64,000 nt of DNA from Primulina eburnea (lineage: Eukaryota; Streptophyta; Magnoliopsida; Lamiales; Gesneriaceae), in NCBI RefSeq assembly GCF_022965805.1, contig NC_133103.1, positions 31,249,635 to 31,313,634 of the forward strand. Direction: 5' to 3'. Below the pieces are notes generated by a model that had not been told where the DNA came from, ran no database searches, and worked only from the letters and a program-made list of their open reading frames with translations. The position numbers were made by a program, and so were the translations under genes. Position 1 is the first letter of the stretch; each line of letters begins with the position of its first letter. This document shows positions 10,122-50,147 of the stretch, in pieces.

Positions 10122-12915
10122 TGTGACGAACCGTACCTTTGCTACTTGAAATTTGCGGAAGAATTAAAAATTTTCTTGAATACGAAAATAAAATCAATAC
10201 GGTCGTCACTACATCCTCCATTCACCAATAAAAATTTTGTTAAAAGAAATTCTTGCTCGAAACATCTCGCATCAAAACATAAAATCATAGTATTAATATT
10301 TTCATGCTTAAAATCTTAAAATAACGTGGGCGGTCCTCGGGTCTAGCCTTCTGCTCAGTCCAAGCCTGCGCCTTGGTCGCCACCTCTCGTCTCAACATAA
10401 TCATCGTCACCTGCATCGATCAAGTTTAGTGAGTCTAAAAATTCAACACGTATAAACTGGAATAGCAAGTAATACATAATAAAACCACATGCAATTTTAA
10501 AATAGGACATACATACTTGAAACTTGAACTTGCAAAATGAACTTGAACATACGTACGTACATAATAAGACGTGCCATCAAAATAAACTTTCTTAAACATG
10601 CTTGCATACTTGAGCATACATAACTTCATCATTTTTCATAGAGGATGTTTCAAAGCAAGTGACCCATACATAATAAACGCCTGATCAGACAAACCACAGT
10701 ATTGGGCCGACAGAGACGTATCCACAGCCACATACATGAGATCCCCGTTCATAATTTAACGGGCTGGTTGGTCCCTGTTTATAATTTAACGATTTCCAAC
10801 CACGATCTAACCCGTTCATAATTTAACGGGGTGGAGAGGTCCTCGACCACGTTCACCGACTTCCAAACCCGTTCATAATTTGGTCACAAGACATTTAGCA
10901 TATCTCAAAAACTAAAAAAAAAATGTTTTCATGCACGTCAACATACTTACTCTGCGTTGAGGGATTCGTTTGACTTCGATCGGGGCCGTCGCTTCTGCAC
11001 ATACTAACATGAAACTGCATACATAACTTGCATAGCTTAGACGTATTAATCATACTTACTTACAAGTTCATTCAATTCTTTAGGACGTTCTAAAATTCCC
11101 ATGAATCGACCTTGTAAAACATTGTACTAAACCATACCATGAAACTCCAAAGGATTCAATAAGTTTTCCCAAAAACTAGAGTACACGGACTCCGTGCCCA
11201 GGTCCGGCTCCGGGTCCGTGTAGGTGCGGTGCAATGTGTCGTGAAGAAAAGTAGAGGCACGGACCCCGTGCATAGGTCCAAGTATGGGTCCGTGTAGACA
11301 CTGGAAAAAGGCACTCCGGAAGAATAAAGGCACGGACCCCGTGCTCTGGTCCGTGTGGGGGTCCGTGTCGGCACGCAAAAGTTGCATCCAGAAGAAAACA
11401 AGGGCACGGGCCCCGTGCCAGGGTCCGTGTCCGGGTCCGTGTACCCTCGATAAAAGCAAACCAACGAAAATTCAATACATGTGCTGCTTATCATCCTAGA
11501 CTTGATTGTGCGGACCATGAACCGATACCCTGAGACCCATCCTAGCATTACATAACAATGAACCAAACTTGTATAAACGCCCCAAAGCAACGACGTTCAC
11601 CCTACGACACATACGACGCAAAATATAGCAAATGACATCAATTCGTTTCCTACGACTTCTAATTGATTCGATTGCCTATCGACATGAAATGAAGCCTCAA
11701 AAATACTCCCATCCTCATTATCAATATACCTATACGCAGCAACGATCACCCGTCGATCCCCAACGAAGCCTGGAACATTAAAACTTCAAGAACGCATCAA
11801 CATCATACTTTCCTGAAAACGCAGTTTGAGCAGTCACATGGAAAACACCATAACTCACTCAATTTTTATTTAAATAACTCGAATTTTATATCAAATTGAA
11901 GGTATCAAAAAGTTCTACGTTTTTCACGGTGAAAGTTTTCTCAGAATCCCAACTGAAAAATCGCAGTTTTCAACAGAACAGCAAATTACAAAATTTCAGA
12001 TCTAAAAATATTTCAAAACTGATCTAAACCATTTTCCGCTCAAACGACGAACGTCACACATGAATTTTTACGCATAAAAATAACACAACACATAATAAGA
12101 CAAGATCGATGCAGAAAGAACAGAATATACGTGCCTTTGATGATAAACGTTACCGAAACGACGATACCGAAGCAGGGATGGCGCGAGGAATGATCCGAGA
12201 CGAACGTGGCGCTAAAATCTTTTAAGAAAAGTGGCGAGAATTACTAAAATCTTTGAAGGGAGGGGGCGGCTGCTGAGTTTTCCCTAGAACCCTAGGTTTG
12301 CTCTCCAAAATAATGGGGAATGAAAATGTGTATGTGTGTGGTGTGTGTTAGACGTGTAGGTGTGTGTATAAGTGTGTGTGCGTGAGTTAGGTAGTAATTT
12401 AGGGAATGATTATTGCTTAATTATAAAATTAACAATGCTAATTAAAAGGCTAACTAAATTGCTACTAAAATGTTAGATTAAATGTTGATAAAAATGCTAA
12501 CTCACTAAAAAGAGAATTTTAAAGATACGCAATTGAAAGTCTTTAAAAGTTTTAAATTGACAACATCGCCTAATAATTAAATTAGGCTTTTAAAATGTTA
12601 AAAAAACTAAATAAATCATTTGAAATACCATTTTCTTGACTTTAAATAAAATACCGTATTTTAAAATCGCCTAAATCGTCGCCGGTCTCCTTTCCTCGAT
12701 CCCGCCTCGAATAATCGTCTGAAACATAAAACTCAAGGAAAACGCTTTAACGTGCATCATATAATAATTTAAAATCATGCAAATTCATAAATCATGAATT
12801 AAAACACAAATTAATAAAATAAACATGCATTAAAACCATTTAATAAAATACATGAGGAATTTAATAACTTGCACGCACGTAATTCATGTGGATCTCAAAT
12901 TTTCGGGACGTCACA
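10122..12915 (-). repeat. 3' LTR of the LARD-like element
   Basis: 2794 bp, ends TG...CA. In element orientation it has a TG/AC-rich microsatellite (12327-12390) near a probable transcription start with 'aaccctagg'-type leader sequence (about 12290), and a GC-rich palindrome array further downstream (11183-11450). Confidence 0.93.
11183..11450. repeat. GC-rich palindromic repeat array in LARD LTR
   Basis: Four irregular units begin near 11183, 11252, 11330 and 11404, about 75 bp apart. Each holds 'cacggacyccgtgc' (self-complementary core) followed by one or two 'ggtccgtgt' words. The second LTR copy has the same array at 16583-16840 but lacks one 12-bp subrepeat. Long open frames across the array on both strands are by-products of its GC-rich repetition. 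Confidence 0.85.
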
Positions 12916-15510: not shown

Positions 15511-15522
15511 GCTCTGATACCA
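15511..15522 (-). other. Primer-binding site, initiator-Met tRNA
   Basis: On the minus strand this reads 'tggtatcagagc', the standard plant site complementary to the 3' end of initiator methionine tRNA, two bases from the 5' LTR. It fixes the element's orientation. Confidence 0.93.
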
Positions 15523-15524
15523 AC

Positions 15525-18301
15525 TGTGACGAACCGTACCTTTGCTACTTGAAATTTGCGGAAGAATTAAAAATTTTCTTGAATACGAAAATAAAATCAA
15601 TACGGTCGTCACTACATCCTCCATTCACCAATAAAAAATTTTTAAAAGAAATTCTTGCTCGAAACATCTCGCATCAAAACATAAAATCAGAGTATTAATA
15701 TTTTCATGCTTAAAATCTTAAAATAACGTGGGCGGTCCTCGGGTCTAGCCTTCTGCTCAGTCCAAGCCTGCTCCTTGGTCGCCACCTCTCGTCTCAATAT
15801 AATCATCCTCACCTACATTGATCAAGTCTAGTGAGTCTAAAGACTCAACACGTATAAACTGGAATAGCAAGTAATAAATAATAATACCACATGCAATTTT
15901 AAAATAGGACATACATACTTGAAACTTGAACTTGCAAAATGAACTTGAACATACGTACGTACATAATAAGACGTGCCATCAAAATAAACATTCTTAAATA
16001 TGCTTGCATACTTGAACATACATAACTTCATCCTTTTTCGTAGAGGATGTTTCAAAGCAAGTGACCCATACATAATAAACGCCTGATCAGACAAACCACA
16101 GTACTAGGCTGACAGGGACGTATCACTGCCACATACATGAGATCCCCGTTCATAATTTAACGGCTGGTTGGTCCTCGTTCATAATTTAATGCTTTCCAAC
16201 CACGATCTAACCCGTTCATAATTTAACGGGGTGGAGAGGTCCTCGGCCACGTTCACCGACTTCCAAACCCATTCATAATTTGGTCACAAGACTTTAGCAT
16301 ACCTCAAAAACTAAAAAAAAAATGTTTTCTTGCACGTCAACATACTTACTTGGCATTGAGGGATTCGCTGGACTTTGATCGGGTCCGTCGCTGCTGCACA
16401 TACTAACATGAAACTGCATACTTAACTTGCATAGCTTAGACGTATTAATCATACTTACTTACAAGTTCATTCAATTCCTTAGGACGTTTGAAAATTCCCA
16501 TGAATCGACCTTGTAAAACATTGTACTAAACCATACCATAAAACTCCAAAGGATTCAATAAGTTTTCCCAAAAACTAGAGTACACGGACACCGTGCCCAG
16601 GTTCGGCTTCGGGTCCGTGTAGGTGCGGTGCAATGTGTCGTGAAGAAAAGTAGAGGCACGGACCCCGTGCATAGGTCCAAGTATGGGTCCGTGTAGACAC
16701 TGGAAAAAGGCACTCCGGAAGAACAAAGGCACGGACCCCGTGCTCTGGTCCGTGTGGGGGTCCGTGTCGGCACGCAAAAGTTGCATCCAGAAGAAAACAA
16801 GGGCACGGGCCCCGTGCCAGGGTCCGTGTACCCTCGATAAAAGAAAACCAACGAAAATTCAATACATGTGCTGCTTATCATCCTAGACTTGATTGTGCGA
16901 ACCATGAACCGATACCCTGAGACCCATCCTAGCATTACATAACAATGAACCAAACTTGTATAAACGCCCCAAAGCAACGACGTTCACCCTGCGACACATA
17001 CGACGCAAAATATAACAAACTACATCAATTCGTTTCCTACGACTTCTAATTGATTCGAGTGCCTATCGACATGAATGAAGCCTCAAAAATACCCCCATCC
17101 TCATTATCAATATACCTATACACAGCAACGATCATCCGTCGATCCCCAACGAAGCCTGCAACATTAAAACTTCAAGAACGCATCAACATCATACTTTCCT
17201 GAAAACGCAGTTTGAGCAGTCACATGGAAAACACCATAACTCACTCAATTTTTATTTAAATAACTCGAATTTTATATCAAATTGAAGGTATCAAAAAGTT
17301 CTACGTTTTTCACGGTGAAAGTTTTCTCAGAATCCCGACTGAAAAATCGCAGTTTTCAACAGAACAGCAAATTACGAAATTTCAGATCTAAAAATATTTC
17401 AAAACTGATCCAAACCATTTTCCGCTCAAACGACGAACGTCACACATGAATTTTTACGCATAAAAATAACACAACACATAATAAGACAAGATCGATGCAG
17501 AAAGAACAGAATATACGTGCCTTTGATGATAAACGTTATCGAAACGACGATACCGAAGCGGGGATGGCGCGAGGATTGATCCGCGACGAACGTGGCGCTA
17601 AAATATTTGAAGAAAAGTGGCGAGAATTACTAAAATCTTTGAAGGGAGGGGGCGGCTGCTGAGTTTTCCCTAGAACCCTAGGTTTGCTCTCCAAAATAAC
17701 GGGGAATGAAAATGTGTATGTGTGTGGTGTGTGTTAGACGTGTAGGTGTGTGTATAAGTGTGTGTGCGTGAGTTAGGTAGTAATTTAGGGAATGATTATT
17801 GCTTAATTACAAAATTAACAATGCTAATTAAAAGGCTAACTAAATTGCTACTAAAATGTTAGATTAAATGTTGATAAAAATGCTAACTCACTAAAAAGAG
17901 AATTTTAAAGATACACAATTGAAAGTCTTTAAAAGTTTTAAATTAACAACATCGCCTAATAATTAAATTAGGCTTTTAAAATGTTAAAAAAACTAAATAA
18001 ATCATTTGAAATACCATTTTCTTGACTTTAAATAAAATACCGTATTTTAAAATCGCCTAAATCGTCGCCGGTCTCCTTTCCTCGATCCCGCCTCGAATAA
18101 TCGTCTGAAACATAAAACTCAAGGAAAACGCTTTAACGTGCATCATATAATAATTTAAAATCATGCAAATTCATAAATCATGAATTAAAACACAAATTAA
18201 TAAAATAAACATGCATTAAAACCATTTAATAAAATACATGAGGAATTTAATAACTTGCACGCACGTAATTCATGTGGACCTCAAATTTTCGGGACGTCAC
18301 A
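15525..18301 (-). repeat. 5' LTR of the LARD-like element
   Basis: 2777 bp, near-identical partner of 10122-12915 with small indels and substitutions. The palindrome array lies at 16583-16840 and the TG microsatellite at about 17713-17770. Confidence 0.93.
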
Positions 18302-21541: not shown

Positions 21542-23585
21542 TGAAAGCGGACCGGTTACGGTGGCCGGAAGCGCAACGGAAGTTAAAAATTTTCGATTGT
21601 CATGAAGAAAATTCGGCCACCTTGATTGTGTGCAATATTTACAATCAAACACCATAAAACATGCATAGGGTGTTTTAGAAATTTACCTATCAATCTTAAA
21701 GATTGATGTAATGGCTCCAACTTTGTTGTAAACAACAAAGCTCTTCAAGGAAAGAAAAATCTACAAGCTTCCTCCTCCAAAATTAAGCCCACCACTTGCT
21801 AGGTAAATCCTTTCTTGTTTTGCACTAGAAAAACAAGAAGATTTTTCAATGAGAAGATTTTTATTCTCCAACACTTGAAGAACAAAAGAGAGAAAAATTT
21901 GAGAGTATTTATTAAGGAAATTTTCGGCCAAGTCTAAGCAAGAATGAGGAGGGAAAGTTGAGTCTTGGGGTTGCAAAAAGTTAGATACAAAAGTTGCATG
22001 CCATGCAATATTTTATTCAAAAGTAATGCAAACCTCTTCACCTCCGAAGCATGCAAACCCTAGTGGGCTTGTAACCTTTACAAGGCCCATGGACTTTTAA
22101 TTGTCCCAAACAATTTGAGCCCAATTAAACTTTACTTGATTTTACTCAAGCCCACTAGTTAAATAATTATTTCCAATTGGGCTCTACAAGGCCCAATGTT
22201 ATTTAATTAATCCAACACTTGAATTAATTTAATTATTTGGACTCTACTAGGCCCACTAGTGTTTAATTAATTCAACACTTGAATTAATTTAATTTAGTCC
22301 ATAATAATGTTTATGAAAATCACAATTTTCAAATACATTAATCACTTGGCCAAATTTTAATCTAGGAACACTTCCATAAATTAAAATTTATATTTCTCTC
22401 ATAGAAGTCATACTTCTATTTTTCTTTATGCTTATAAACACATTTATAAGCCATTCAACACATTGAACTATTTTACTTCTCATCGGGATTTACAAAGCTA
22501 GTACTTGTGTGGTCCTCAATGGTTCATTGATACGACTAGCCGTGGGTTCACATCTCCATGTGATTCGGACTAAACATGTCCTTATATGAGCATACCCCAA
22601 TTGCTCCATTCTTATTTATCAACCCTTGATAATAAGAACGTCAGAACTCAAGTCTGATATTACCCAACCAATCATGTTAAACGCCTAGCAGCATCGCTTA
22701 CATGATTCCCTAGGTATCAAATGATAGTGCCTGCAAGAACCATTCAATTATGGTTAGCGTACAGTACAGTCCCTTCAACTCATATATCCCGATCGATTCG
22801 ACAACTATTGGTTTATCGAGAGTTGTCAATGAATCGATACTATGTGTCATGTCGTAGTTGCATCGATGGTGTAATCTATGAAACCCCTTTCATAATTACA
22901 ACCATACTCTGATCAGAGATTTCAAACTACACGCACATGAAAACACATAGGATATCCATACCCGTAGGTAAGCGGTGAATCCCCGACTACAATGCATCGA
23001 CTCCTACATGTTTCGCCGTGACACCCAACCTTGCCACCTGATGACCCCATAAGAGTCGGTAAACAAGTCAAAGTGAAACGCTAGCACATAAAGTCTCAAT
23101 GTTGTCCCGGGTCATAAGGACTAATGGTGTACAACCATAAACTAGGATGTTTCCACTCGATAAGTGAGAACCACTTGGAAAGTCCTTTATAGAGGGTTGT
23201 TCAGTGCAGTCTACCAGGAGCACCTATCTGCATGCTCGGACATCACAATGTCCCCTACCAATGAAACATGGTACTCACATCGCAGATACTAGTCTCTAAC
23301 TCGAGCGGCCTATATCCTTCTTAGTGGCGGGTGAATCGACTAGGAACCGTTTAGAATATACAGTATTACAAATATGAGTTTCATGATACTCATCATATGA
23401 GCATCTCATATTCTTTCTACTATTTGTATATTCAAGGACTTTATCTATGCAACTAGCATGGATATACAGATAAAGATGCGCCAATATAATAAATTCAAAT
23501 ATTATTAAAATAAAGATCGTTTATACATAGAGTTTCATCGTGAACACTCGGCCAATACTTGGCTCGACGTGCACCTACTCTAACA
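21542..23585 (-). repeat. 3' LTR of the copia element
   Basis: 2044 bp. In element orientation it opens 'tgttagagtagg' and closes '...ccgctttca'. The purine-rich 'gtgcaagtgagaga' (23586-23599) just outside is the polypurine tract. Confidence 0.92.
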
Positions 23586-23599
23586 ATCTCTCACTTGCA

Positions 23600-30913: not shown

Positions 30914-32956
30914 TGAAAGCGGACCGGTTACGGTGGCCGGAAGCGCAACGGAAGTAAAAAATTTTCGATTTTCATGAAGAAAATTCGGCCACCTTGATTG
31001 TGTGCAATATTTACAATCAAACACCATAAAACATGCATAGGGTGTTTTAGAAATTTACCTATCAATCTTAAAGACTGATGTAATGGCTCCAACTTTGTTG
31101 TAAACAACAAAGCTCTTCCAGGAAAGAAAAATCTACAAGCTTCCTCCTCCAAAATTAAGCCCACCACTTGCTTGGTAAATCCTTTCTTGTTTTGCACTAG
31201 AAAAACAAGAAGATTTTTCAATGAGAAGGTTTTTATTCTCCAACACTTGAAGAACAAAAGAGAGAAAAATTTGAGAGTATTTTTTAAGGAAATTTACGGC
31301 CAAGTCTAAGCAAGAATGAGGAGGGAAAGTTGAGTCTTGGGGTTGCAAAAAGTTAGATACAAAAGTTGCATGCCATGCAATATTTTATTCAAAAGTAATG
31401 CAAACCCCTTCACCTCCCAAGCATGCAAACCCTAGTGGGCTTGTAACCTTTACAAGGCCCATAGACTTTTAATTGTCCCAAACAATTTGAACCCAATTAA
31501 ACTTTACTTGATTTTATTCAAACCCACTAGTTAAATAATTATTTCCAATTGGGCTCTACAAGGCCCAATGTTATTTAATTAATCCAACACTTGAATTAAT
31601 TTAATTATTTGGACTCTACTAGGCCCACTAGTGTTTAATTAATTCAACACTTGAATTAATTTAATTTAGTCCATAATAATGTTTATGAAAATCACAATTT
31701 TCAAATACATTATTCACTTGGCCAAATTTTAATCTAGGAACACTCCATAAATTAAAATTTATATTTCTCTCATAGAAGTCATACTTCTATTTTTTTTTAC
31801 GCTTATAAACACATTTATAAGCCGTTCAACACATTGAACTATTTTACTTCTCATCGGGATTTACAAAGCTAGTACTTGTGTGGCCCTCAATGGTTCATTG
31901 ATACGACTAGCCGTGAGTTCACATCTCCATGTGATTCGGACTAAACATGTCCTTATATGAGCATACCCCAATTGCTCCATTCTTATTTATCAACCCTTGA
32001 TAATAAGAATGTCAGAACTCAAGTCTGATATTACCCAACCAATCATGTTAAACGCCTTGCAGCATCGCTTACATGATTCCCTAGTTATCAAATGATAGTG
32101 CCTGCAAGAACCATTCAATTATGGTTAGCGTACAGTACAGTCCCTTCAACTCATATATCCCGATCGATTCGACAACTATTGGTTTATCGAGAGTTGTCAA
32201 TGAATCGATACTATGTGTCATGTCGTAGTTGCATCGATGGTGTAATCTATGAAACCCCTTTCATAATTACAACCATACTCTGATCAGAGATTTCAAACTA
32301 CACGCACATGAAAACACATAGGATATCCATACCCGTAGGTAAGCGGTGAATCCCCGACTACAATGCATCGACTCCTACATGTTTCGCCGTAACACCCAAC
32401 CTTGCCACCTGATGACCCCATAAGAGTCGGTAAACAAGTCAAAGTGAAACGCTAGCACATAGAGTCTCAATGTTGTCCCGGGTCATAAGGACTAATGGTG
32501 TAAAACCATAAACTAGGACGTTTCCACTCGATAAGTGAGAACCACTTGGAAAGTCCTTTATAGAGGGTTGTTCAGTGCACTCTACCAGGAGCACCTATCT
32601 GCATGCTCGGACATCTCAATGTCCCCTACCAATGAAACATGGTACTCACATCGCAGATACTAGTCTCTAACTCGAGCGGCCTATATCCTTCTTAGTGGCG
32701 GCTGAATCGACTAGGAACCGTTTAGAATATACAGTATTACAAATATGAGTTTCATGATAATCATCATATGAGCATCTCATATTCTTTCTCCTATTTGTAT
32801 ATTCAAGGACTTTATCTATGCAACTAGCATGGGTATACAGATAAAGATGCGTCAATATAATAAATTCAAATATTATTAAAATAAAGATCGTTTATACATA
32901 GAGTTTCATCGTGAACACTCGGCCAACACTTGGCTCGACGTGCACCTACTCTAACA
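30914..32956 (-). repeat. 5' LTR of the copia element
   Basis: 2043 bp, partner of 21542-23585 with scattered substitutions and single-base indels. Confidence 0.92.
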
Positions 32957-32964
32957 ACAGAGAG

Positions 32965-38790: not shown

Positions 38791-38912
38791 AGCCAATGCA
38801 TTGTATATGGGAATTCAGCGCGCACCTGATGGTGTGGATATATTATGTGATCTGACGAGTTAATAGTGCAAAGAATCTCTAGTCAAAGTAAGATATGAGA
38901 TTTAGGGAAGGT
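38791..38912. other. Unassigned target DNA left of the Athila element
   Basis: With 50148-50239 this forms about 210 bp of sequence interrupted by the Athila insertion. No domain recognised. Confidence 0.5.
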
Positions 38913-40398
38913 TGTTGCGACTTTGATTGTTGCACTCCCAAGAGCAGGTTGTCCACAAGTAATATAATTCGGTGAGTCCGAATATCGTATCCACAGGGAA
39001 GCAAAGGTAATTACAAGTCCACTATAATGTCTTTTTGTTTTTGTTTTTGTTTTTGTTTCTTTTTAATTTTAATTGAATCTTTATTGGGTAAATTTTAATT
39101 GTTCAAATTTTAATTTAAGTAGTTGAGATTAAAGGATCCACTCTTGGCATTTTAATAAAATTAACATTAATGAACAATATTGAAATCCACTTAATAAAAT
39201 GGTTCCAATATATTAAATAATCATATTTATATTATGTTATATATTATTATCTTATAAGTATATAATATATACCAAAACTTATAAATGTGGTCAAGTATTT
39301 ATTGTGCTATATATATATTTGTAAACACTAAATCAAGGTTCCCACTTTAAATGGTTGGTAAAACCAAACTAACATTTAAATGGTACCAAGAAAATATTAT
39401 TATGATATATTTATATATAGTAAATCAAGGAATCCAAGTTAAATGGTTGGTAAAACCAAACTAACATTTAAATGGTTCCAAGAATTTAGTGTAACATATA
39501 GCAACAATAAATCAAAACTCCCACTTATAAGTAGGGTATAAAAATACTTAAAGAAATAAATATAACATAAACAATAAATAATGATTAAATAATATAAAAC
39601 ATAGATTCTTACCTTATAATAACCTTATTATCATGCCAAAAGTTTCACCTTATCATCTCAACTTTAGGAAGTTAGCTATTCATTATTCAAAGTGTAAAAC
39701 TTTGAATATGAAATTAACATGCTAATTATATTTAAATGAAGAAATAAAAGAAAAATATAGAGAGAAATATTATGAACTCAAAGATTTGTTCATAGAATGA
39801 GGGATATCTCAATACATTACAATGCACCCCTATTTATAGCCAAATTTGGGGAGACAACCACAAATAAAATATTATTTTTTACACATAAGTCTTCATTGGT
39901 GTTCCAAGAAATTAATATTATATTACACATCACTTTTGAAAATCTTCTTCTCCGAATTTGCTTCTTCACATAAAATGAAACATGTGGATAATTGAGTTGT
40001 CTAGTTGTGGTATTTTTTTCAGAATATTTGACCAAGTAATTTGAGAGATATGGTCAAAATACTAGAGCATGGTAAAACTGCTACTCCTTTGGTAACTTTA
40101 ATTGTTGCTTAATTTGATCCCACTTGTGAGAGGATTTTTATCTCATGCTTGGCAACAATATTGTAGATCTTATAATCAACTTTCTACAGGTCCAAGAATC
40201 ATCTTAATCCCATTTGCAACGCCAAGGTTATTCTTGTTTTATCAAACCTGTAAAAATAGTAAAAACTTATAATTACACCACAACTTATATTTTATACAAT
40301 TTATTATAAAACATATAATATTTAAACATTTAATAAAACAAAAACTATATATTTATATTATAAAACATTTAATTAATGTACAATTTTTATGTTTATCA
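38913..40398 (-). repeat. Athila 3' LTR
   Basis: Minus-strand reading 'tgataaacat...gtcgcaaca'. The TATA box 'tataaata' is at 39831-39838. It includes four 'tttttg' hexamers (39033-39058) and two near-copies of a 'taaatggttggtaaaaccaaactaacattt' segment (about 39347 and 39441). Confidence 0.95.
39831..39838 (-). promoter_or_regulatory. TATA box of the Athila LTR (3' copy)
   Basis: 'ggctataaatagggg' on the minus strand. The equivalent in the 5' LTR is at 49575-49582 and would drive the genomic RNA. Confidence 0.75.
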
Positions 40399-41601
40399 CA
40401 CCTCCCAACCAGCTTATTGCTAGTCCCTAGCAATTTAAGCGTTAATAGCAATACAAAACATTTTGATTAATTTAAATAGAAATGTAATCAGAACTATCTA
40501 AGTGTTTAAATTAAATTTGAAAACTGTCAAAATTATATCAAGATCATCATAATTATAATTTATGAAATAATTTGAGATGATTAATTCAAAGCTTATTTCA
40601 GGTAGTTAAGTGTACACGGCCTTCAGAAATTCCTAGTAAGAGTCTCAACTCCATATCCTCACAGGTTAATAAATGTTTCTATTTATGGCAACGATTTCTC
40701 TCATGGAGTTGGAATACAGATGAATGCTCAGGAAAATGGTTTACAGAATGCAGACAGACAAACGAGCCAAACTAATCAAAAGATAGAAAATCCATTGAGT
40801 TAAAATCCATTTGTTCTTATTATATATTTTTTTTTCCTGATATTTTTTTTTTTACATCATGGAATCAGACTAAGTTTATGCTTTTTGACCACATATTTAT
40901 TTAATTTGTACAATGTATTTCTCTCTTTCTTTTTTTTTTTCTTTTTTTTTATTCTTATGAGAGAAAAATGGGTCACAGCATATAACTTAAAAATTACATA
41001 GATCTTCAACATCTTTCTTTTTGTATTTTTCTCTTTTTTTTTTCTTTTTTTTTTCAGGAAATATCATTTTTTTTTTCAAAATAAGAACTCAAGATCTAAA
41101 CAATAGATAGTCTCTCTCATGATCAATAAAGGCTCGAAAGCTGTTTTCTCAGTCCTCTCCACTCACTCACAAAATATGTGTGAGTTTAAAATTTTAGGCA
41201 CTCTTATAAGGTATATCTTGGGCCATATACTTTAATACCTGATTTTATCACAATGGTTAATCACTCAAAAAGATTTCATAAATCATATTTTTATATTAAT
41301 CAGAATATTAAAATTGAAATTTCTTTTTCAAATAAAAATTTAAACATTCTTAAATAGATTAATGCATATTCTAATTTAAATCTTTCAAACATGTAATGTA
41401 TAACATTTTTGCAAAAATTACTAAGATACAAACAATAAACATGATTTTATTTTAAAAAAATATTTTTTTTTAATTTTTTAATTTTTTTTTAAATGTTTTT
41501 TATATAAGTTTGTTCTCCCCCCAATCAGAATATGACATTGTCCCTAATGTCAAAATAACTAGTAATAAAGAGTGCATAATGAAAGAGATATCACCTGGAA
41601 T
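40399..41601 (-). other. Athila 3' non-coding region with purine tracts
   Basis: From the LOG gene to the 3' LTR. On the minus strand there are many runs of A with occasional G (40825-41060, 41455-41500), and near the LTR 'ggttgggaggtg' as polypurine tract plus an inverted 'ttgctagggactagcaa'. No coding frame is seen. Confidence 0.8.
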
Positions 41602-41607
41602 TTTATT
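41602..41607 (-). terminator. Candidate polyadenylation signal of the LOG gene
   Basis: 'aataaa' lies 48 bases beyond the LOG stop codon on its strand, far upstream of the 3' LTR. It would allow the LOG transcript to end before the LTR. Confidence 0.5.
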
Positions 41608-41654
41608 GAAGATAACAAACTGAAACAAATGCAAACCAATCCACGACTTTTGAA

Positions 41655-42293
41655 TCAATGATCCAACTTCCTTTTCTTACTGCTTGATTGTGACCAATTG
41701 ATCTTTGTTATCACCGGATCAGGCTTATGAACAAAAGCTTCTAAATCATCAATTAATTGATTGGCAATCGAAGCACAGATGAGCATCCGTCGTGAATTTT
41801 CTGAAATGAAATTCTGTTCCACAGCTTTATCAAGAAATGTCAACAAACTGTCATAATAATTATTGATATTCAACAAGCCCACAGGTTTATTATGGATATT
41901 AAGTTGTGCCCAAGAAACAGTGTGAAAAATTTCTTCTAATGTACCAAAACCACCTGGTAGTGCGATAAAAGCATCAGAATTTTCAATCATTTGAGTGATT
42001 CTTTCATACATAGAAGAAACTTTTAATTCATCACCAATCGTAACACCTGTAATATTTCCTTCAGCTAAAGCTATAGGAATAATACCCCAAACCTGACTAC
42101 CTCCAAGATGAGCAGATGTTGAAACAGATCCCATTAACCCAATATTACCTCCCCCATATACCAAGTGAATTTTTCTCTCAGCCAATATCTTTCCAAGATT
42201 ATTCGCTGCTTCTACAAACACTTCATTTTTTCCAGGACTCGACCCACAAAATACACAAATATTTTTCAATGTTTGTGCAGAGGATCCAGCCAT
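41655..42293 (-). CDS. LOG: LOG-type cytokinin riboside 5'-monophosphate phosphoribohydrolase
   Basis: 212 residues, the normal length of plant LONELY GUY enzymes, which release free active cytokinin from cytokinin riboside monophosphates in one cytosolic step. Visible motifs are 'FCGSSPGK' (15-22), 'VYGGGNIGLMG' (45-55), the catalytic-type Arg98 in 'MYERI', the hallmark 'PGGFGTLEE' (113-121) and 'WAQLNIHNKPVGLLN' (128-142). Family-conserved Arg and Glu are present, so activity is plausible. The tail 'KKRKLDH' could be a nuclear signal. The gene has no introns, unlike plant LOG genes, which suggests capture through an mRNA. It lies inside the Athila element between the zinc-finger gene and the 3' LTR, on the coding strand. 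The family call is near certain; its use by the element is inference. Confidence 0.95.
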   Translation of the reverse strand: MAGSSAQTLKNICVFCGSSPGKNEVFVEAANNLGKILAERKIHLVYGGGNIGLMGSVSTSAHLGGSQVWGIIPIALAEGNITGVTIGDELKVSSMYERITQMIENSDAFIALPGGFGTLEEIFHTVSWAQLNIHNKPVGLLNINNYYDSLLTFLDKAVEQNFISENSRRMLICASIANQLIDDLEAFVHKPDPVITKINWSQSSSKKRKLDH

Positions 42294-42314
42294 GTTTTTA
42301 CTTTCTTTTTTTTT

Positions 42315-42340
42315 CTGCGAAAATAGAGAGAAAGATGAGA
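42315..42340 (-). promoter_or_regulatory. Candidate 3' splice site just upstream of LOG
   Basis: On the minus strand a 26-base pyrimidine-rich stretch ends in 'tattttcgcag' at 42315, leaving a 21-base ATG-free leader to the LOG start at 42293. A second acceptor-like 'ttattctgtttacag' ends at about 42387. These would let a spliced copy of the genomic RNA translate LOG. Confidence 0.5.
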
Positions 42341-42342
42341 GA

Positions 42343-42349
42343 TTTTATA
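42343..42349 (-). promoter_or_regulatory. Candidate TATA box of the LOG gene
   Basis: 'cccctataaaatctctc' on the minus strand is followed by CT-rich sequence and the LOG ATG about 50 bases downstream. It is an alternative to splicing and could be a captured or newly formed promoter. Confidence 0.45.
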
Positions 42350-42502
42350 GGGGTAATATGTTATCATGACAAAACTATGGGTCACAGCTGTAAACAGAAT
42401 AAATAGTAAAAACAATAATGACACACATGCATATAAACAGTAGTGTGATTGTGGCTCACAATTTTCCTCTGGTTTTACGTCCAGAAACGGCTTCAACGCC
42501 TT

Positions 42503-43048
42503 CTATGAGTCGAGGATATGCTTCCCATCCAATTTTCTTATAAATTGGCAAACATGGTCTTTTTTAGTCAGATTTCCAAGACTATGACGCTCATCTTGGA
42601 ATTGTTTCCATAAACGGAGAAGTTCAATATGCACATGTCCACTAGAATGCGTCTCAAGAGTCAATAAGATGTTATCTAAAGACTCCTTACTCAGCCCATT
42701 CTTAATGAAATCAATTTTATCTTCTCTGTTATTGGAAACACATCCCAAAGATCTGCATCGTTTGTCACAAGTCCATCTTGCACACTTATGACAAACCCCT
42801 AAACTTTTTGCCCTTCGTTTTTTCGCACAAGTGCTTTTTCCTAATCCAGGCAAATACCGAATGAGCAATGATTGTGGAACTTCTCCTCCTAATCGGACCT
42901 TAGCTTCAATTACAAGACGAATATCTTCTGGAATTCTTTTTTGCATTAGCAATCTCAATCTTTCACACCTTCTTGCATAAATTTTTCTTAGAACATTTTC
43001 AGAAACAGAGGGAAAATATTTACAAATTTTTGAGAGAATTTCATCCAT
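42503..43048 (-). CDS. Basic zinc-finger protein, carlavirus nucleic-acid-binding-protein-like
   Basis: 181 residues. The core is a basic run 'AKKRRAKSLG' (75-84) followed directly by a Cys motif: C86-x2-C89-x8-C98-x4-C103, with an extra Cys at 94. After it comes 'NNREDKIDFIKNG' (106-118). A basic run, CHxC finger and an x4-spaced second Cys pair are the signature of the cysteine-rich nucleic-acid-binding proteins at the 3' end of carlavirus genomes, which bind nucleic acid, can enter the nucleus and in several viruses suppress RNA silencing. The viral proteins are shorter, with a longer finger loop. Here N- and C-terminal extensions are added, both helical and Leu/Arg-rich. The frame is intact, starts 166 bases after the pol stop and precedes LOG. 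Homology is my reading of motifs, not a search; an unrelated plant zinc finger is the alternative. Confidence 0.6.
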   Translation of the reverse strand: MDEILSKICKYFPSVSENVLRKIYARRCERLRLLMQKRIPEDIRLVIEAKVRLGGEVPQSLLIRYLPGLGKSTCAKKRRAKSLGVCHKCARWTCDKRCRSLGCVSNNREDKIDFIKNGLSKESLDNILLTLETHSSGHVHIELLRLWKQFQDERHSLGNLTKKDHVCQFIRKLDGKHILDS

Positions 43049-43111
43049 TTTGAAAAGAAATGATTTTTTTTTATTTTTGTATCAGCAATTGTGGGAAACT
43101 GATTTAACCGA

Positions 43112-43118
43112 CTATGAG
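43112..43118 (-). promoter_or_regulatory. Candidate 3' splice site upstream of the zinc-finger gene
   Basis: Minus-strand 'ctctcatag' (ending at 43112) follows a T-rich stretch (43140-43190). The first ATG after it is the zinc-finger gene's own start at 43048. Weaker than the LOG acceptor. Confidence 0.35.
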
Positions 43119-43214
43119 AGTCACGGAGTACCGTTATCCGCCATTTAACCGGGAAAATAAAAAGATTAAGGAAACTTAAATAAAAACAAACAAAATTAAA
43201 TGCAACATAAAAAT

Positions 43215-46200
43215 TTAAGGATCAGAAAGGGAAATAAACTCTTCTTGAAAGATTTCATTTTCCAAAAATGGTTTAAGCCTTTGTCCATTCACTTTAAAAA
43301 CATCACCATTTTTAGGATTTTCAATATCCACAGCTCCATAAGGATACACATGCTTTACAACATATGGGCATGTCCATCTTGATCGTAATTTTCCTGGGAA
43401 TATGTGAAGTCGAGAATTATAAAGCAAAACTTTTTTACCAATCTCAAAAGATTTTCTAAGAATTGTTTTATCATGAAATGATTTGATTTTTGCTTTATAA
43501 ATCCTTGAATTCTCATACGCATCATTTCTGAGTTCATCAAGTTCATTAAGTTGCAATTTACGCAATTTGTTGGCATCATCCATGCTTGAATTTAAAGTTT
43601 TGATCGCCCAATAAGCTTTATGTTCCAATTCTACAGGCAAATGACAATGTTTTCCATAAACCAACCTATAGGGAGACATATTCAATGATGTTTTAAAAGC
43701 TGTTCGATATGCCCAAAGTGCATCATTAAGTCGCAGAGACCAATCTTTTCTATTTGAGTTAACAGTTTTTTCCAAAATTTGTTTTATCTCCCTATTAGCT
43801 AATTCAACTTGTCCATTTGTTTGAGGATGATAAGGAGTAGTTACTTTGTGAGTAATACCATATTTTTTCATTAATGAAGCAAATGGTTTATTAACAAAGT
43901 GAGTTCCCCCATCACTTATCATAGCTCGAGGAATTCCGAATCTACTAAAAATATTTTCTTTCAAAAATTTGATGACGATTTTATGATCATTTGTTCGACA
44001 TGGAATTGCCTCTATCCATTTGGAAACATAATCAACTGCAACTAAAATATACAAGTATCCAAACGACGGTAGAAAAGGTCCCATAAAATCAATTCCCCAA
44101 CAGTCAAAGATTTCAATTTCAATGATAGGATTCAAAGGCATCATGTTTCTTTTTGAAATTGCACCCAATTTTTGACAATTTTCACATATCTTGCAGATTT
44201 CGTGGGTGTCTTTAAACAAAGTGGGCCAATAAAATCCACACTGCAAAATTTTTGCAGCCGTTTTCTTTGAAGAAAAATGTCCTCCGCATGCTTCTGAATG
44301 ACAAAATTTAATGACACTACTTACCTCATTGTCGGGTATGCAACGTCGAAAAATTTGATCTGGACAGTACTTGAACAGATACGGATCATCCCAATAAAAG
44401 TTTTTTACCTCATTCAAAAATTTTCTCTTATCTTGGGAACTCCATTGCGGTGGCATTTTTCCTGTCACAAGAAAATTTACTATGTTAGCAAACCAAGGTG
44501 TAGTAGTAACTGAAAATAGATGTTCATCAGGAAAATTATCGTTAATTGGTGTCATTTCAAAAGATGATCCTGTTACTAGTCTCGATAAATGATCGGCTAC
44601 GACATTCTCGGTTCCTTTTTTATCTTTGATCACAATGTCAAATTCTTGGAGTAACAAAATCCATCGTATCAGTCGTGGCTTTGCATCCTGTTTCGTCAAC
44701 AAATATCTAATAGCAGAATGATCAGTAAACACAATAGTCGTTGATCCAATCAAATAAGAACGAAATTTATCTAATGCAAATATTACAGCAAGTAGTTCTT
44801 TTTCAGTTGTGGAGTAATTCATTTGAGCATTGTTTAAAGTTCTACTTGCATAATATATCACATAAGGCTTACCGTTTCTTCTTTGACCCAGTACTGCACC
44901 GACTGCATAATCACTCGCGTCGCACATGATTTCAAATGGTAAAGACCAATCAGGAGGTTGCATGATAGGAGCTGATGTTAAATGTCGAATGATTTTATCA
45001 AAAGCATTTTGACATTCTTGAGTCCACTCAAATGCAGTGTCTTTTGTTAAGAGGTTACAAATGGGTTTAGAGATTAAACTAAAGTCCTTTATAAACCTCC
45101 TATAAAATCCAGCATGTCCCAAAAATGAGCGAATTTCTTTAATGGTTTTTGGAGGGGGTAAATTGGCAATGACATCAACTTTTGCTTTATCAACTTCTAT
45201 TCCATGAGATGACACGACATGTCCCAAAACAATTCCAGAAGTAATCATGTAATGACATTTTTCCCAATTTAAAATAAGACCTTTTTCCTCGCATCTTTTT
45301 AAAACTTTTTCCAAATTTTCAAGACAATTATCAAATGTATTCTCAAAGACAGTTAAATCATCCATGAAAATTTCCAAACAATTTTCAACCATGTCGCAAA
45401 AAATGCTTAGCATACATCTTTGAAATGTTGCTGGGGCATTGCATAATCCAAATGGCATCCTTCTAAATGCAAATGTTCCAAAAGGACATGTGAATGTAGT
45501 TTTATCTTGATCTTCGAGTGCAATGGGAATTTGATAATAGCCTGAATATCCGTCAAGAAAACAGTAGTAGGGATGACCAGCTACTCTTTCTAAAATTTGA
45601 TCCAAAAATGGTAATGGAAAATGATCTTTTCTAGTGATATCATTTAATTTTCTATAGTCAATACACATCCGCCAACTAGATGGGACTCGACTTGTTAACA
45701 ATTCACCTTTTTCATTTTTTATCACTGTGATGCCAGATTTTTTTGGAACTACTTGTGTTGGGCTTACCGACTTACTATCAGAAATAGGGTATATAATCCC
45801 AACATCAAGTAGTTTGAGAACTTCAGTTTTCACAACATCTTTCATGTGTGGATTTAATCTCCTTTGTGGTTGTTGAGATGTTTTTGCATTTTCTTCTAAG
45901 TGAATTTTGTGTATGCAAATTAGTGGATTAATGCCCTTGAGATCTTTTAGTGTCCAACCAATTGCATTTTTATGTCTTTTAAGCATATCAACTAATTTAC
46001 CTTCTTGATCACTTTCCAGTTTGGAAGAAATTACCACTGGATATGTTTCATCTTCTCCAAGAAATGCATACTTCAATTCTTCTGGCAAGGGTTTTAACTC
46101 CAATATTGGTGGTTCGTCTTTGTTCTCATATTTTGCATCAAATTCTTTCTCTGATCCTGTTAACGAGTGATACCTGATAAAATCATCAAGATCAATTTCA

Positions 46201-47513
46201 ATATTTTCTTTAACAGTTTCAATTGAACAAATATCTAATTGATCACGAGTACTCCCTTCTTGAATGTTTTCTTCCACAAGAGTTTCAATAAGATTTTCAT
46301 CTTCACTTTCATCTCCTTTGTCATGTGGTTGCTTACAAAGATTAAAAACATTGAGCTCCAAGGTCATGTTACCAAATGACAACTTCATTATTCCATTCCT
46401 GCAATTTATAAGAGCATTAGAAGTTGCTAAAAATGGACGACCCAAAATTACAGGAATTGCATTACAAGCTTCGATAGGTTGTGTATCTAAAACTATGAAA
46501 TCGACAGGATATACAAAGTTATCAACTTGGACCAACACGTCTTCTACCATACCTCTTGGCACTTTAACAGATCTATCGGCAAGTAAAAGTGTTACCGAAG
46601 TAGGTTTTAAGTCGCCTAGATTGAGTTCTTGATAAACTGAATATGGAAGTAAATTCACACTAGCTCCAAGATCAAGCAAGGCTTTTTTAATCTTTCGTTC
46701 TCCAATAATACATGAAATAGTAGGACAACCAGGGTCTTTGTATTTCAAAGTATTATTATTTTGAATGATTGCACTTACTTGTTCGGCTAAAAATGCTTTC
46801 TTTTTCACATTCAATTTTCTTTTCACAGTGCACAAGTCTTTCAAAAATTTAGCATATGATGGTACCTGTTTTATTGCATCTAATAAAGGAATATTAACTT
46901 TTACTTGTTTAAAAATATCATATATATCAGAAATCAAATTTGATTTTTTTGTATTTTTCAATGCATGAGGGAATGGTGGTGACACTGTCTGTTGAACCTC
47001 CTCTTCGCAAGTTATGGGTTCCACTTCCTTACCCTTTGAAGTTGATTTATCATCATCTTCACAAGGTTCAAGAATGGATTTTTCCACAACCTTACCACTT
47101 CGAAGGGTAATAACAGATTTTACCTGATCCATCGATTGAGTTCTAGAAGTTCCAATTTGTGAATGATGATCCTTGGGATTAGGCAAAGGTTGTGAAGAAA
47201 ATTTACCTTTCTCATGAACATTAAGTGCAGATGCAAATTTAGCAAGAGTATCTTTCAAATCTGTCATGGTTTGAGCAGTTTGAGTATTGATAGACTCTTG
47301 CTTTGCAATGAAAGAATTCAATGTATCTTCCAAATTTCTTTTCGGTGGAGGAACATAAGGTGCATAATTTTGAAAATTTTGTTGATTTTGAAAATGTGGT
47401 TGCGGAAATTGTGCAGCATTATCATTCCTCCAACTAAAATTTGGATGGTTTCGCCAACCTGGATTGTAATTTTGAGAAAATGGTTCAAAATTTGGCCTTT
47501 TGAAATTGTTCAA
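43215..47513 (-). CDS. pol: Athila pol polyprotein: protease, RT, RNase H, integrase
   Basis: An uninterrupted 1432-codon frame. Residues 1-60 are the end of gag with the Athila-type 'NYNPGW' signature. Then come aspartic protease '[12 protein letters not shown]' (279-290), RT with '[11 protein letters not shown]' (653-663) and catalytic 'FMDD' (716-719), and RNase H '[12 protein letters not shown]' (864-875). The integrase has an H1072/H1079/C1110/C1113 zinc site and the D1142, D1201, E1237 triad in 'GIDFMGPF', 'ISDGG' and '[10 protein letters not shown]'. Key catalytic residues are present. The frame begins with TTG only because it is displaced one nucleotide from gag; gag-pol was probably a single ORF. 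It makes and integrates the element's DNA. Confidence 0.95.
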
Positions 47514-48460
47514 AACATTGGCTTGTTCATGGAGACATTCTTAAAAGAGGGCCAAGTGGGACAATCTTTTGTAAAATGATCACTTGTATCACAGATGTGA
47601 CACGCAATTTCTTGAACAGATTTTAATTGACCATTCTTTTTCAATTCAAGTACTTCAACTTTTCTTGCCAAAGAAGTAAATCTAGCTTGAAGATCATGTT
47701 CATCTTTGAGAGTGTACATACCTCCACCAGATGTAGGAGATTGAATCTTGTTTGATTGTTCGATTGTACCTATAGTGTCCCAATTTTGAGCATTTTCAGC
47801 TAATGAATCGAGATACTCAATTGCCTCGTTTGGATCTTTATCTTCAAATGTTCCATTACACATAAATTCAACCATTTGCCTATCTTTAGGTGTTAAGACT
47901 TCATAAAATTGAGAAACAACTCTCCAAATTTCAAAACCATGATGTGGACAAAGATTAAGCAATTCTTTGTATCTATCCCAACACTGATAAAAAGTTTTTC
48001 CTTCTTTTTGAGTGAAAGTGATGATTTGCCTTTTGAAAGAATTTGTTCTATGAGATGGAAAAAACTTTTTCAAAAATTGTTGTTGCAATTCATCCCAAGT
48101 TCGAATGGATCCCGATCTAAGATTTTGTAGCCAAGTTTTAGCTTTATCTTTTAAAGAAAAAGGAAAAAGCTTAAGTCGAATGGTGTTCATGCTACAATTT
48201 AGATCATTATATGTGTTGCACACTTCTTCAAACTCTCGTAAATGCATGTATGGATTTTCAGAATCTAAGCCATGAAAATTGGGTAAAAGTTGGATAATAC
48301 CAGGCTTAAAATTAAAATGAGATGCATCAGGGGGAAAAACTAGACATGAAGGTGCACTAGTACGTGTAGGATTCATGTGATCTCTAAGAGTTCTTCGTCT
48401 ATCATGATCATGTTGAGATTGAATTTCATCTTCATTTTCTTGGATGGGTTCTTCCGCCAT
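47510..48460 (-). pseudogene. gag: Athila gag, with one frameshift near its end
   Basis: The likely start is the ATG at 48460 ('MAEEPIQENEDE'); the frame is open further upstream, but those residues are hydrophobic leader translation. The retrotransposon gag domain ('FPFSLKDKAKTWLQNL', 'FLKKFFPSHRT') is followed by a linker and a CCHC-type knuckle ('CHICDTSDHFTKDC'). The frame ends at 47510, overlapping the pol frame by a few bases. Coding similarity passes from one frame to the other near 47531-47535, consistent with loss of a single nucleotide there. Otherwise gag looks intact, and gag products could also come from related elements. Confidence 0.88.
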
Positions 48461-48635
48461 GTTTTGTAAAAATAAAGGGTTATTTCGAATGAGTCGACCA
48501 CTAAGTGTACGTGACCAAATGCTCATGCAAATGCAAATGCAAAAGAATAAAAACACACAAAAGCAATAAATATTCAAATAAATAAAAATAAACTATAAAC
48601 AAAATTAAATAGACTTGAAATTAAATTATACTTCT

Positions 48636-48650
48636 CCGGCAACGGCGCCA
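48636..48650 (-). other. Primer-binding site, tRNA-Asp type
   Basis: Minus-strand 'tggcgccgttgccgg', the classical Athila primer site complementary to the 3' end of Asp tRNA, six bases from the 5' LTR. Confidence 0.9.
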
Positions 48651-48656
48651 AAAACT

Positions 48657-50142
48657 TGTTGCGACTTTGATTGTTGCACTCCCAAGAGCAGGTTGTCCAC
48701 AAGTAATATAATTCGGTGAGTCCGAATATCGTATCCACAGGGAAGCAAAGGTAATTACAAGTCCACTATAATGTCTTTTTGTTTTTGTTTTTGTTTTTGT
48801 TTCTTTTTAATTTTAATTGAATCTTTAATGGGTAAATTTTAATTGTTCAAATTTTAATTTAAGTAGTTGAGATTAAAGGATCCACTCTTGGCATTTTAAT
48901 AAAATTAACATTAATGAACAATATTGAAATCCACTTAATAAAATGGTTCCAATATATTAAATAATCATATTTATATTATGTTATATATTATTATCTTATA
49001 AGTATATAATATATACCAAAACTTATAAATGTGGTCAAGTATTTATTGTGCTATATATATATTTGTAAACACTAAATCAAGGTTCCCACTTTAAATGGTT
49101 GGTAAAACCAAACTAACATTTAAATGGTACCAAGAAAATATTATTATGATATATTTATATATAGTAAATCAAGGAATCCAAGTTAAATGGTTGGTAAAAC
49201 CAAACTAACATTTAAATGGTTCCAAGAATTTAGTGTAACATATAGAAACAATAAATCAAAACTCCCACTTATAAGTAGGGTATAAAAATACTTAAAGAAA
49301 TAAATATAACATAAACAATAAATAATGATTAAATAATATAAAACATAGATTCTTACCTTATAATAACCTTATTATCATGCCAAGAGTTTCACCTTATCAT
49401 CTCAACTTTAGGAAGTTAGCTATTCATTATTCAAAGTGTAAAACTTTGAATATGAAATTAACATGCTAATTATATTTAAATGAAGAAATAAAAGAAAAAT
49501 ATAGAGAGAAATATTATGAACTCAAAGATTTGTTCATAGAATGAGGGATATCTCAATACATTACAATGCACCCCTATTTATAGCCAAATTTGGGGAGACA
49601 ACCACAAATAAAATATTATTTTTTACACATAAGTCTTCATTGGTGTTCCAAGAAATTAATATTATATTACACATCATTTTTGAAAATCTTCTTCTCCGAA
49701 TTTGCTTCTTCACATAAAATGAAACATGTGGATAATTGAGTTGTCTAGTTGTGGTATTTTTTTCAGAATATTTGACCAAGTAATTTGAGAGATATGGTCA
49801 AAATACTAGAGCATGGTAAAACTGCCACTCCTTTGGTAACTTTAATTGTTGCTTAATTTGATCCCACTTGTGAGAGGATTTTTATCTCATGCTTGGCAAC
49901 AATATTGTAGATCTTATAATCAACTTTCTACAGGTCCAAGAATCATCTTAATCCCATTTGCAACGCCAAGGTTATTCTTGTTTTATCAAACCTGTAAAAA
50001 TAGTAAAAACTTATAATTACACCACAACTTATATTTTATACAATTTATTATAAAACATATAATATTTAAACATTTAATAAAACAAAAATTATATATTTAT
50101 ATTATAAAACATTTAATTAATGTACAATTTTTATGTTTATCA
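48657..50142 (-). repeat. Athila 5' LTR
   Basis: 1486 bp. It differs from the 3' LTR at about six positions counted by eye (for example near 48826, 49246, 49385, 49677, 49827 and 50088). TATA box at 49575-49582. Confidence 0.95.
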
Positions 50143-50147
50143 AAGGT

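Follow-up and report, generated by a model that had tools for sequence, protein, structure and literature searches.

A recurring pair of zinc-finger and LOG-related genes in a high-copy Ty3/gypsy retrotransposon of Primulina eburnea

Athila-like Ty3/gypsy elements with a LOG-like extra open reading frame (ORF) were reportedly described, as LOGL4, by Steinbauerova et al. in Genetica. A LOG-type (YgdH) domain in Ty3/gypsy elements of Citrus and Populus is also noted, with reference to that work, in the main text of PMC9289625. Here we analyzed a 64,000-nt stretch of the Primulina eburnea genome (Gesneriaceae, Lamiales; C3:31249635-31313634 of an 812-Mb assembly), which we call the window. It holds an 11.2-kb Ty3/gypsy element with two extra genes in sense orientation between pol and the 3′ long terminal repeat (LTR), one for a zinc-finger protein of the viral nucleic-acid-binding protein type (NABP), the other for a LOG-related protein (retro-LOG). 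The original prediction, made from the letters of this DNA, had described two intact, intronless genes on the coding strand where an env-like ORF is expected, and had looked to the Lamiales for further copies; the complete reading frames, their position and the host species agree with this. With a probability of roughly 60%, we read the locus as one young copy from a high-copy element family (likely Athila) in which a NABP gene and a LOG-related gene recur after pol, likely as a joint accessory module that would act in the host nucleus.

LOG domains in such elements are thus already known; the single clade of retro-LOG proteins, the loss of pocket residues and the basic and EAR-like tail are new here, and the NABP, its pairing with LOG and the signs of selection appear to be. 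The main text of PMC9289625 makes no mention of a NABP (no matches to 'carla' or 'nucleic acid binding'). Literature searches aimed at these points, which covered texts other than subscription papers and supplements, turned up neither a NABP in an element of this kind nor the gene pair, and no report of an altered pocket or tail. The earlier statement that the pairing is undescribed therefore stands for the pair, but the LOG-type domain in Ty3/gypsy elements was already in print.

Recurrence of the gene pair

A first look at the genome gave 1,042 candidate places for the LOG family PF03641, 1,425 for NABP and 1,383 for P0128, a Primulina eburnea protein that NCBI names LOG3-like. These totals are not copy numbers, because only the best 150 candidates per query were scored. 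Of these, 149 LOG and 146 NABP places were free of stop codons; having been picked by best score, they represent the least decayed copies. Among the loci examined first, NABP was present in all eight found through LOG, and LOG in 29 of the 30 found through NABP (the window is one of the 30, as L010, and L011, L015 and L018 are three cassettes belonging to a single element). After 12 further LOG places had been added, NABP or a piece of it preceded LOG in 18 of 20 LOG-found loci. The distance between the two genes was 212–219 nt in 34 of the 36 pairs measured. In the one NABP-found locus that formed an exception (L029), a LOG of the same orientation was listed ∼9.3 kb further downstream, a spacing that a nested insertion would give and may reflect here.

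Chance can be excluded as the origin of the gene pair, because the same order recurs within the genome and both genes have relatives in other eudicots; the pairing counts in LOG-found and NABP-found loci rule it out as well. Two further candidates were rejected. A one-off insertion is ruled out by the many copies in the genome, and LOG is not an ordinary host gene beside the element, as it lies inside the LTRs, lacks introns and keeps the same order in other copies. The original prediction had named a single copy, or decayed one-off insertions, as what would speak against it; what we found instead were many copies of constant order, with both genes in the same place in a second subfamily too.

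Among the fetched copies, one on C7 shows the full order LTR-gag-pol-NABP-LOG-3′ region-LTR, and its LTRs differ at one site over a 1,572-bp alignment. The C12 copy runs from LTR through gag, pol, NABP and LOG into the 3′ region, most of which is included (the fetched stretch contains no 3′ LTR), and the C3 copy fetched has LTR-gag-pol-NABP. An element on C15 (∼11.054-11.062 Mb; L040 4231-9846, L041 557-1950) contains four tandem NABP-LOG cassettes of ∼2.1 kb each between pol and LTR.

The second subfamily accounts for 80 of the 150 scored P0128 matches and has the order pol-NABP-LOG in all three fetched copies (L060-L062). Its LOG is 66% identical to that of the window and its NABP 37–57% identical in these three copies; in one of them LOG is identical to P0128, despite an interrupted NABP. 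This subfamily is also recent, with 11 copies listed at top score and 100% identical to P0128. Since P0128 is called LOG3-like yet matches element copies, database genes named in this way can be retrotransposon genes, which is a warning for their use.

Beyond this genome, 314 NABP relatives passed E 0.01 among 363 candidates, and the names in the best 120 listed include Xanthoceras, Populus, Rhamnella, Acer and Orobanche. The best 120 LOG matches come, where named, from Xanthoceras, Primulina, Diplodiscus, Reevesia (30 of 120), Populus, Paulownia, Parasponia and Rehmannia. Two of the 240 listed relatives of both genes were joined to sequence resembling the window's pol: P0095 (Rhamnella), with the end of an integrase followed by NABP, and P0122 (Xanthoceras), with LOG and a stretch resembling the segment of pol that precedes the protease. 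In two cases, a NABP match and a LOG match lie on contigs of equal size (8,723 and 4,511 bp), which weakly suggests that the genes are together there too; short contigs can also be of equal size by chance (905 and 1,161 bp).

A scan of genome contigs gave one locus, L001 (DAIEQH010000041.1), in which an integrase resembling that of the window is followed by NABP. A single blastn alignment (73.8%) connects it with the window from pol through NABP to ∼70 nt beyond the NABP stop. The contig belongs to a Candidatus Nomurabacteria metagenome-assembled genome and resembles plant retrotransposon DNA, i.e. a contamination of the bacterial assembly. Within the non-coding spacer that precedes NABP, the block GGCGGATAACGGTACTCCGTGACTC is common to the window and L001.

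The two proteins

The window's LOG protein matches PF03641 (E 5e-36), and its closest solved structures are At2g37210 (E 3e-62), then At5g11950. We compared two sets, both defined by rank: the 120 best matches of the window LOG (retro-LOG set) and the 120 best matches of an At2g37210 fragment (host set, mostly LOG1/LOG3-like). The window protein is 54–96% identical to the retro-LOG set (median 60) and 45–52% to the host set (median 49). It keeps the PGGxGTxxE motif and both catalytic residues, R98 and E121. Across the retro-LOG set, the catalytic Arg is kept in 114 and the catalytic Glu in 115 of 120 proteins; all five catalytic and phosphate residues are kept in 108 of 120, compared with 120 of 120 host LOGs.

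The substrate pocket is different. According to the text of PMC4979012, the prenyl site of CgLOG seemingly consists of Met96, His97, Lys100, Glu125 and Trp129, with Glu125 and Trp129 contributed by the other subunit, and Lys100 helps to bind adenine. Alanine changes of the residues in contact with adenosine monophosphate (AMP), Lys100 being named among them, led to an almost complete loss of activity, Ser19 excepted. In the window LOG, Tyr96, Ile99 and His124 stand where CgLOG has His97, Lys100 and Glu125. The pocket Lys is kept in five and the pocket Glu in six of the 120 retro-LOG-set proteins, and each in all 120 host LOGs. Both were kept in five proteins, all from Xanthoceras and all at the base of the clade; elsewhere the pair is replaced jointly, mostly by Met, Leu or Ile together with Gln or His, which amounts to one change on the tree. 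In this tree of 62 rows, with 117 retro-LOG-set proteins and the window thinned to 39 rows and the rearranged Xanthoceras proteins P0122, P0123 and P0156 excluded, the retro-LOG set forms one side of a branch with support 100/100 (the bootstrap was not fully settled). The clade spans rosids and asterids.

Because the pocket Lys and Glu are replaced in the window and in nearly all listed relatives, cytokinin activation is not to be assumed. Judged by its residues, the window LOG is a remodelled LOG-family protein, which we do not file as a proven cytokinin-activating LOG. The original prediction had gone further: a complete LOG enzyme would raise active cytokinin, and the element would thereby keep its host cell dividing. 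The identity to host LOGs, the kept motif and catalytic residues and the intact Lys/Glu pocket of the deepest relatives, those from Xanthoceras, agree with an ordinary enzyme, but the joint loss of the pocket Lys and Glu (in 115 and 114 of 120 relatives, and in no host LOG) occurred once on the tree and concerns a pocket in which alanine changes of the AMP-contact residues, Lys100 being named among them, are reported to nearly abolish activity (PMC4979012). We thus retain the complete gene from that description and consider its cytokinin-raising role unlikely.

NABP was described in the original prediction as resembling carlavirus proteins, and the Pfam matches bear this out: PF05515 (Viral_NABP) scored above its cut-off (E 1.4e-5, 25.6 bits against 23) and PF01623 (Carla_C4) below it (E 3e-3). 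Among 120 aligned members, PF05515 was matched at E 0.001 in 103 and PF01623 in 100. The window protein has a basic stretch at residues 76-81, followed by Cys 86, 89, 94 and 98, a putative zinc finger; all four Cys are present in 104 and the basic stretch in 119 of the 120 members. AlphaFold models were poor (predicted local distance difference test, pLDDT, of 55 with 23 sequences and 64 with 120). Viral contigs scanned with the NABP alignment and with pol contained no relative. According to PMC12172455, a nuclear localization signal (NLS) and a zinc finger are common to related viral cysteine-rich proteins, several of which suppress silencing, while p12 of chrysanthemum virus B is a transcription factor that induces hyperplasia. 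The gene connects a pathogenicity family of RNA viruses with a resident plant element.

NABP could also serve the element, chaperoning RNA or aiding its packaging in the manner of an extra nucleocapsid, and not act on the host. The family is nucleic-acid binding by name, the basic stretch and four Cys are conserved, and the element stretch on L001 has NABP without LOG. We nevertheless regard this role as quite unlikely, as gag already has a zinc-knuckle match, though one below cut-off, and viral relatives that have both an NLS and a zinc finger act as silencing suppressors or transcription factors (PMC12172455).

A second difference from host LOGs lies at the C-terminus. Within the last 22 residues, an LxLxL (EAR-like) motif is present in 98 of 120 retro-LOG-set proteins and in none of the 120 host LOGs, and a basic, NLS-like stretch in 106 and one, respectively. 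In the tail of the window LOG (KKRKLDH), we looked for LxLxL and found it absent; DLNxxP was not searched for. The window's clade of four is missing the LxLxL end and keeps KKRK. Together with the lost pocket pair, the frequent LxLxL end could mean that retro-LOG is no longer an enzyme and is instead a nuclear scaffold with a co-repressor-recruiting tail. This is improbable: 108 of 120 relatives, and the window LOG, retain the catalytic and phosphate-binding residues, for which an inactive scaffold would have no use, and the window's clade is without the LxLxL end.

Selection, element structure and predicted expression

Between the two subfamilies, LOG gave a nonsynonymous rate (dN) of 0.249 and a synonymous rate (dS) of 1.203 by NG86 (ratio 0.21), and of 0.233 and 0.923 by LWL85. 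For NABP against L001, dN and dS were 0.208 and 0.759 (NG86; ratio 0.27), 0.187 and 0.441 (LWL85) and 0.183 and 3.157 (YN00), with dN/dS between 0.06 and 0.42 across methods; the integrase part of the same comparison gave 0.181 and 1.637. We further compared variants among copies of the own genome, using full-length, gap-free copies (45 LOG, 40 NABP, the window being L010) and skipping 12 LOG and two NABP variants; one LOG copy was counted twice (overlap of L015 and L018), and the tandem cassettes are not independent. Singleton variants look neutral, and shared ones are shifted toward silent changes: the silent/replacement counts were 9/54 for singleton and 10/8 for shared variants of NABP (p 0.0008), and 23/72 and 19/28 for LOG (p 0.053).

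Together with the comparison of dN and dS, which had been proposed with the original prediction, this points to purifying selection on both genes; NABP has the stronger evidence within the genome's own copies, and LOG across the two subfamilies. That the two genes were picked up by accident and are now decaying passengers is very improbable: stops in a number of copies, the neutral look of singleton variants and the interrupted NABP frames of the second subfamily would fit, but shared NABP variants are skewed silent, NG86 dN/dS is 0.21 for LOG and 0.27 for NABP, and one LOG clade, in which 108 of 120 proteins retain the catalytic residues, extends across rosids and asterids.

The features of the element are collected in Table 1. 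Within the window, the direct-repeat comparison of the LTRs gave a 1,487-bp match with six mismatches (99.6% identity), and once the LTR ends are set to TG...CA, both flanks of the element carry the 5-bp direct repeat AAGGT. By commonly used plant rates, an LTR divergence of ∼0.4% corresponds to a few hundred thousand years at most, and the element is young. In pol, RVT_1 (4.8e-29, residues 602-765), RT_RNaseH (1.1e-36, 855-958) and rve (1.7e-16, 1138-1230) were matched, and the protease matches were weak. Reverse transcriptase and RNase H precede the integrase, which is the gypsy order, and gag, pol, two LTRs and a 5-bp target-site duplication are all present.

Table 1. Features of the element, in positions of the window
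Feature	Position	Strand	Remarks
Whole LTR element	38913-50142	minus	11.2-kb Ty3/gypsy
Target-site duplication AAGGT, left copy	38908..38912		right copy identical
3′ LTR	38913..40398	minus	direct match to 48656-50142; TG...CA ends set by target-site duplication
Presumed polypurine tract GGTTGGGAGGTG	40399..40410	minus	purine-rich; adjoins 3′ LTR
Retro-LOG	41655..42293	minus	212 aa, ATG to stop, intronless
NABP-LOG spacer	42294..42502	minus	contains the element's two top-scoring acceptor-like AGs
NABP	42503..43048	minus	181 aa, ATG to stop
pol-NABP spacer	43049..43214	minus	alignable with related element on L001
pol ORF	43215..47513	minus	protease, reverse transcriptase, RNase H, integrase (Pfam)
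gag ORF	47510..48577	minus	355 aa; PF03732; zinc knuckle match below cut-off
Presumed primer-binding site TGGCGCCGTTGCCGG	48636..48650	minus	6 nt inside 5′ LTR; sequence present
5′ LTR	48657..50142	minus	direct repeat with 3′ LTR; TG...CA ends
Donor-like GT (AAG/GTAAGA) in 5′ LTR	49355..49356	minus	LTR position 786
TATA-like box GGCTATAAATAG in 5′ LTR	49576..49582	minus	LTR position 560; one of eight TATA-like matches in LTR
Target-site duplication AAGGT, right copy	50143..50147		left copy identical

The gag and pol ORFs of the window copy occupy different frames. In three fetched copies, by contrast, a single open frame crosses the gag-pol junction (1,581, 1,666 and 1,790 aa, the first two clipped by piece ends). 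The window copy is probably not autonomous, because its frame is broken; intact relatives exist. The original prediction of a young Athila element thus held as to age and Athila-type layout, with the broken gag-pol frame of this copy as a correction. We assign it as likely Athila from this layout rather than from a lineage tree. A primer-binding site complementary to tRNA-Asp is typical of Athila, and the sequence TGGCGCCGTTGCCGG next to the 5′ LTR would be such a site. Athila ORF-1 (pfam03078) was not among the Pfam matches of the element's four ORFs. As a feature carried by 16% of Athila elements, according to the text of PMC6317226, it is optional and therefore no bar to membership. Rfam gave no match within the element. 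A G-run, TTGGGGGG, lies at 41512-41528, ∼1.1 kb upstream of the presumed polypurine tract, and may be a second plus-strand priming site; a similar G-run follows NABP on L001 (2600-2610).

Retroviruses express env and accessory genes by splicing. The donor AAG/GTAAGA was present in all five LTR pieces examined, the top two of the 544 AGs of the element by our home-made score fall in the gap between NABP and LOG (AG ends 42315 and 42388), and an acceptor pattern lies upstream of LOG in 33 of 39 LOG starts of the fetched loci. Expression of the NABP-LOG region by splicing from the LTR donor is therefore predicted as likely.

The window contains other repeats. A direct repeat at 21542-23586 and 30914-32957 (98.2% identical) is likely the LTR pair around a copia-type gag and reverse transcriptase. 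A second, of 2.8 kb (10119-12915 and 15522-18301, 96.8% identical), is probably also an LTR pair, with no ORF of at least 120 aa listed in between. A 415-aa ORF at 3213-4460, ∼1.6 kb after a copia reverse transcriptase ORF (470-1597), has a weak Transposase_32 match below cut-off and is possibly another retrotransposon extra ORF.

Proposed function and known systems

For the joint accessory module that we favor, a transcript would start at the LTR TATA box, and splicing would join the LTR donor to acceptors ahead of LOG, and perhaps ahead of NABP, in the way that retroviruses make their env and accessory mRNAs. Once in the nucleus, the zinc-finger protein would bind nucleic acid and, like the related viral proteins, dampen silencing or alter host transcription. 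The LOG protein would still hydrolyze a nucleoside monophosphate, with altered base preference, and its EAR-bearing relatives, in contrast to the window LOG without an EAR-like end, would also dock a TOPLESS-type co-repressor. Both would likely act in the nucleus to help the element spread. Protection from silencing and a changed state of the host cell, which the original prediction had suggested, are likewise conjectural.

Several observations weigh against this module. On L001, no LOG was found in the ∼980 nt remaining after NABP; LOG is therefore optional and the module not obligatory, and NABP may be the older passenger of the two. Each of the three copies fetched from the second subfamily has an interrupted NABP frame, none being open over the entire match. 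Most of the 120 retro-LOG-set proteins were not individually placed inside elements. The variant test for LOG is borderline (p 0.053, and 0.09 without C>T/G>A). Pooled ratios were near neutral over LOG-found loci (LOG 0.69, NABP 0.80; stops in 3/16 and 5/10), against 0.27 and 0.11 over NABP-found loci and 0.43 and 0.23 over stop-free copies; as they varied with the gene used to pick loci, we rely on shared versus singleton variants and on dN/dS across subfamilies. A Foldseek search with the NABP model (pLDDT 64) gave nothing at E 0.001 or better and did not confirm the fold; its best matches were all insignificant (E 0.72 and worse), the top two being proteins named RNA silencing suppressor, one from Fig latent virus 1 and one from Grapevine Kizil Sapak virus. 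Finally, the splice signals are known from DNA alone and were ranked by a score of our own making.

A bolder interpretation, which we hold only tentatively, is that a widespread plant retrotransposon lineage carries a two-protein nuclear effector kit, with a zinc finger shared with RNA viruses and a LOG pocket swapped to another N6-modified adenine nucleotide, to which most lineages would have added their own nuclear signal and TOPLESS-docking motif. If so, the element would, much like pathogen effectors, intervene in the host nucleus both in nucleotide metabolism and in repression. Extra genes of plant retrotransposons are mostly without known use. In this case, two of them recur together, with signs of purifying selection and with relatives across many eudicots. 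Since the pocket change can be placed on the tree and the tail is found in no host LOG examined, chemistry and partners are directly testable.

The LOG-bearing Ty3/gypsy elements of PMC9289625 and Steinbauerova et al. share with ours a LOG-type domain in a plant element, and differ in that the former, in its passage on these elements, describes no pocket loss, basic and EAR-like tail, single clade or selection. Host LONELY GUY enzymes (At2g37210, At5g11950, CgLOG) share PF03641, PGGxGTxxE and the catalytic Arg and Glu, whereas retro-LOG is without the Lys100/Glu125 pair, intronless and inside an LTR element, with a basic and LxLxL tail in most relatives. The cysteine-rich proteins of carla-, allexi- and mandariviruses, as the text of PMC12172455 presents them, resemble NABP in the basic or NLS motif, the Cys zinc finger and PF05515 plus PF01623; NABP, in contrast, is encoded by a retrotransposon after pol and measures ∼180 aa, the likeness being one of Pfam and motif. 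Orchid Ty3/gypsy elements with an N6-methyladenosine demethylase (PMC9289625, main text) likewise show a plant retrotransposon acquiring an enzyme for N6-modified adenine, but the enzyme is another one and reported only from two Phalaenopsis species, whereas here a two-gene module has relatives of both genes across eudicots. The TOPLESS-binding EAR effectors HaRxL21 and Jsi1 of pathogens are similar as non-host proteins with an EAR-type motif that are expected in the nucleus; retro-LOG differs from them in being encoded by a resident retrotransposon, with TOPLESS binding as a prediction.

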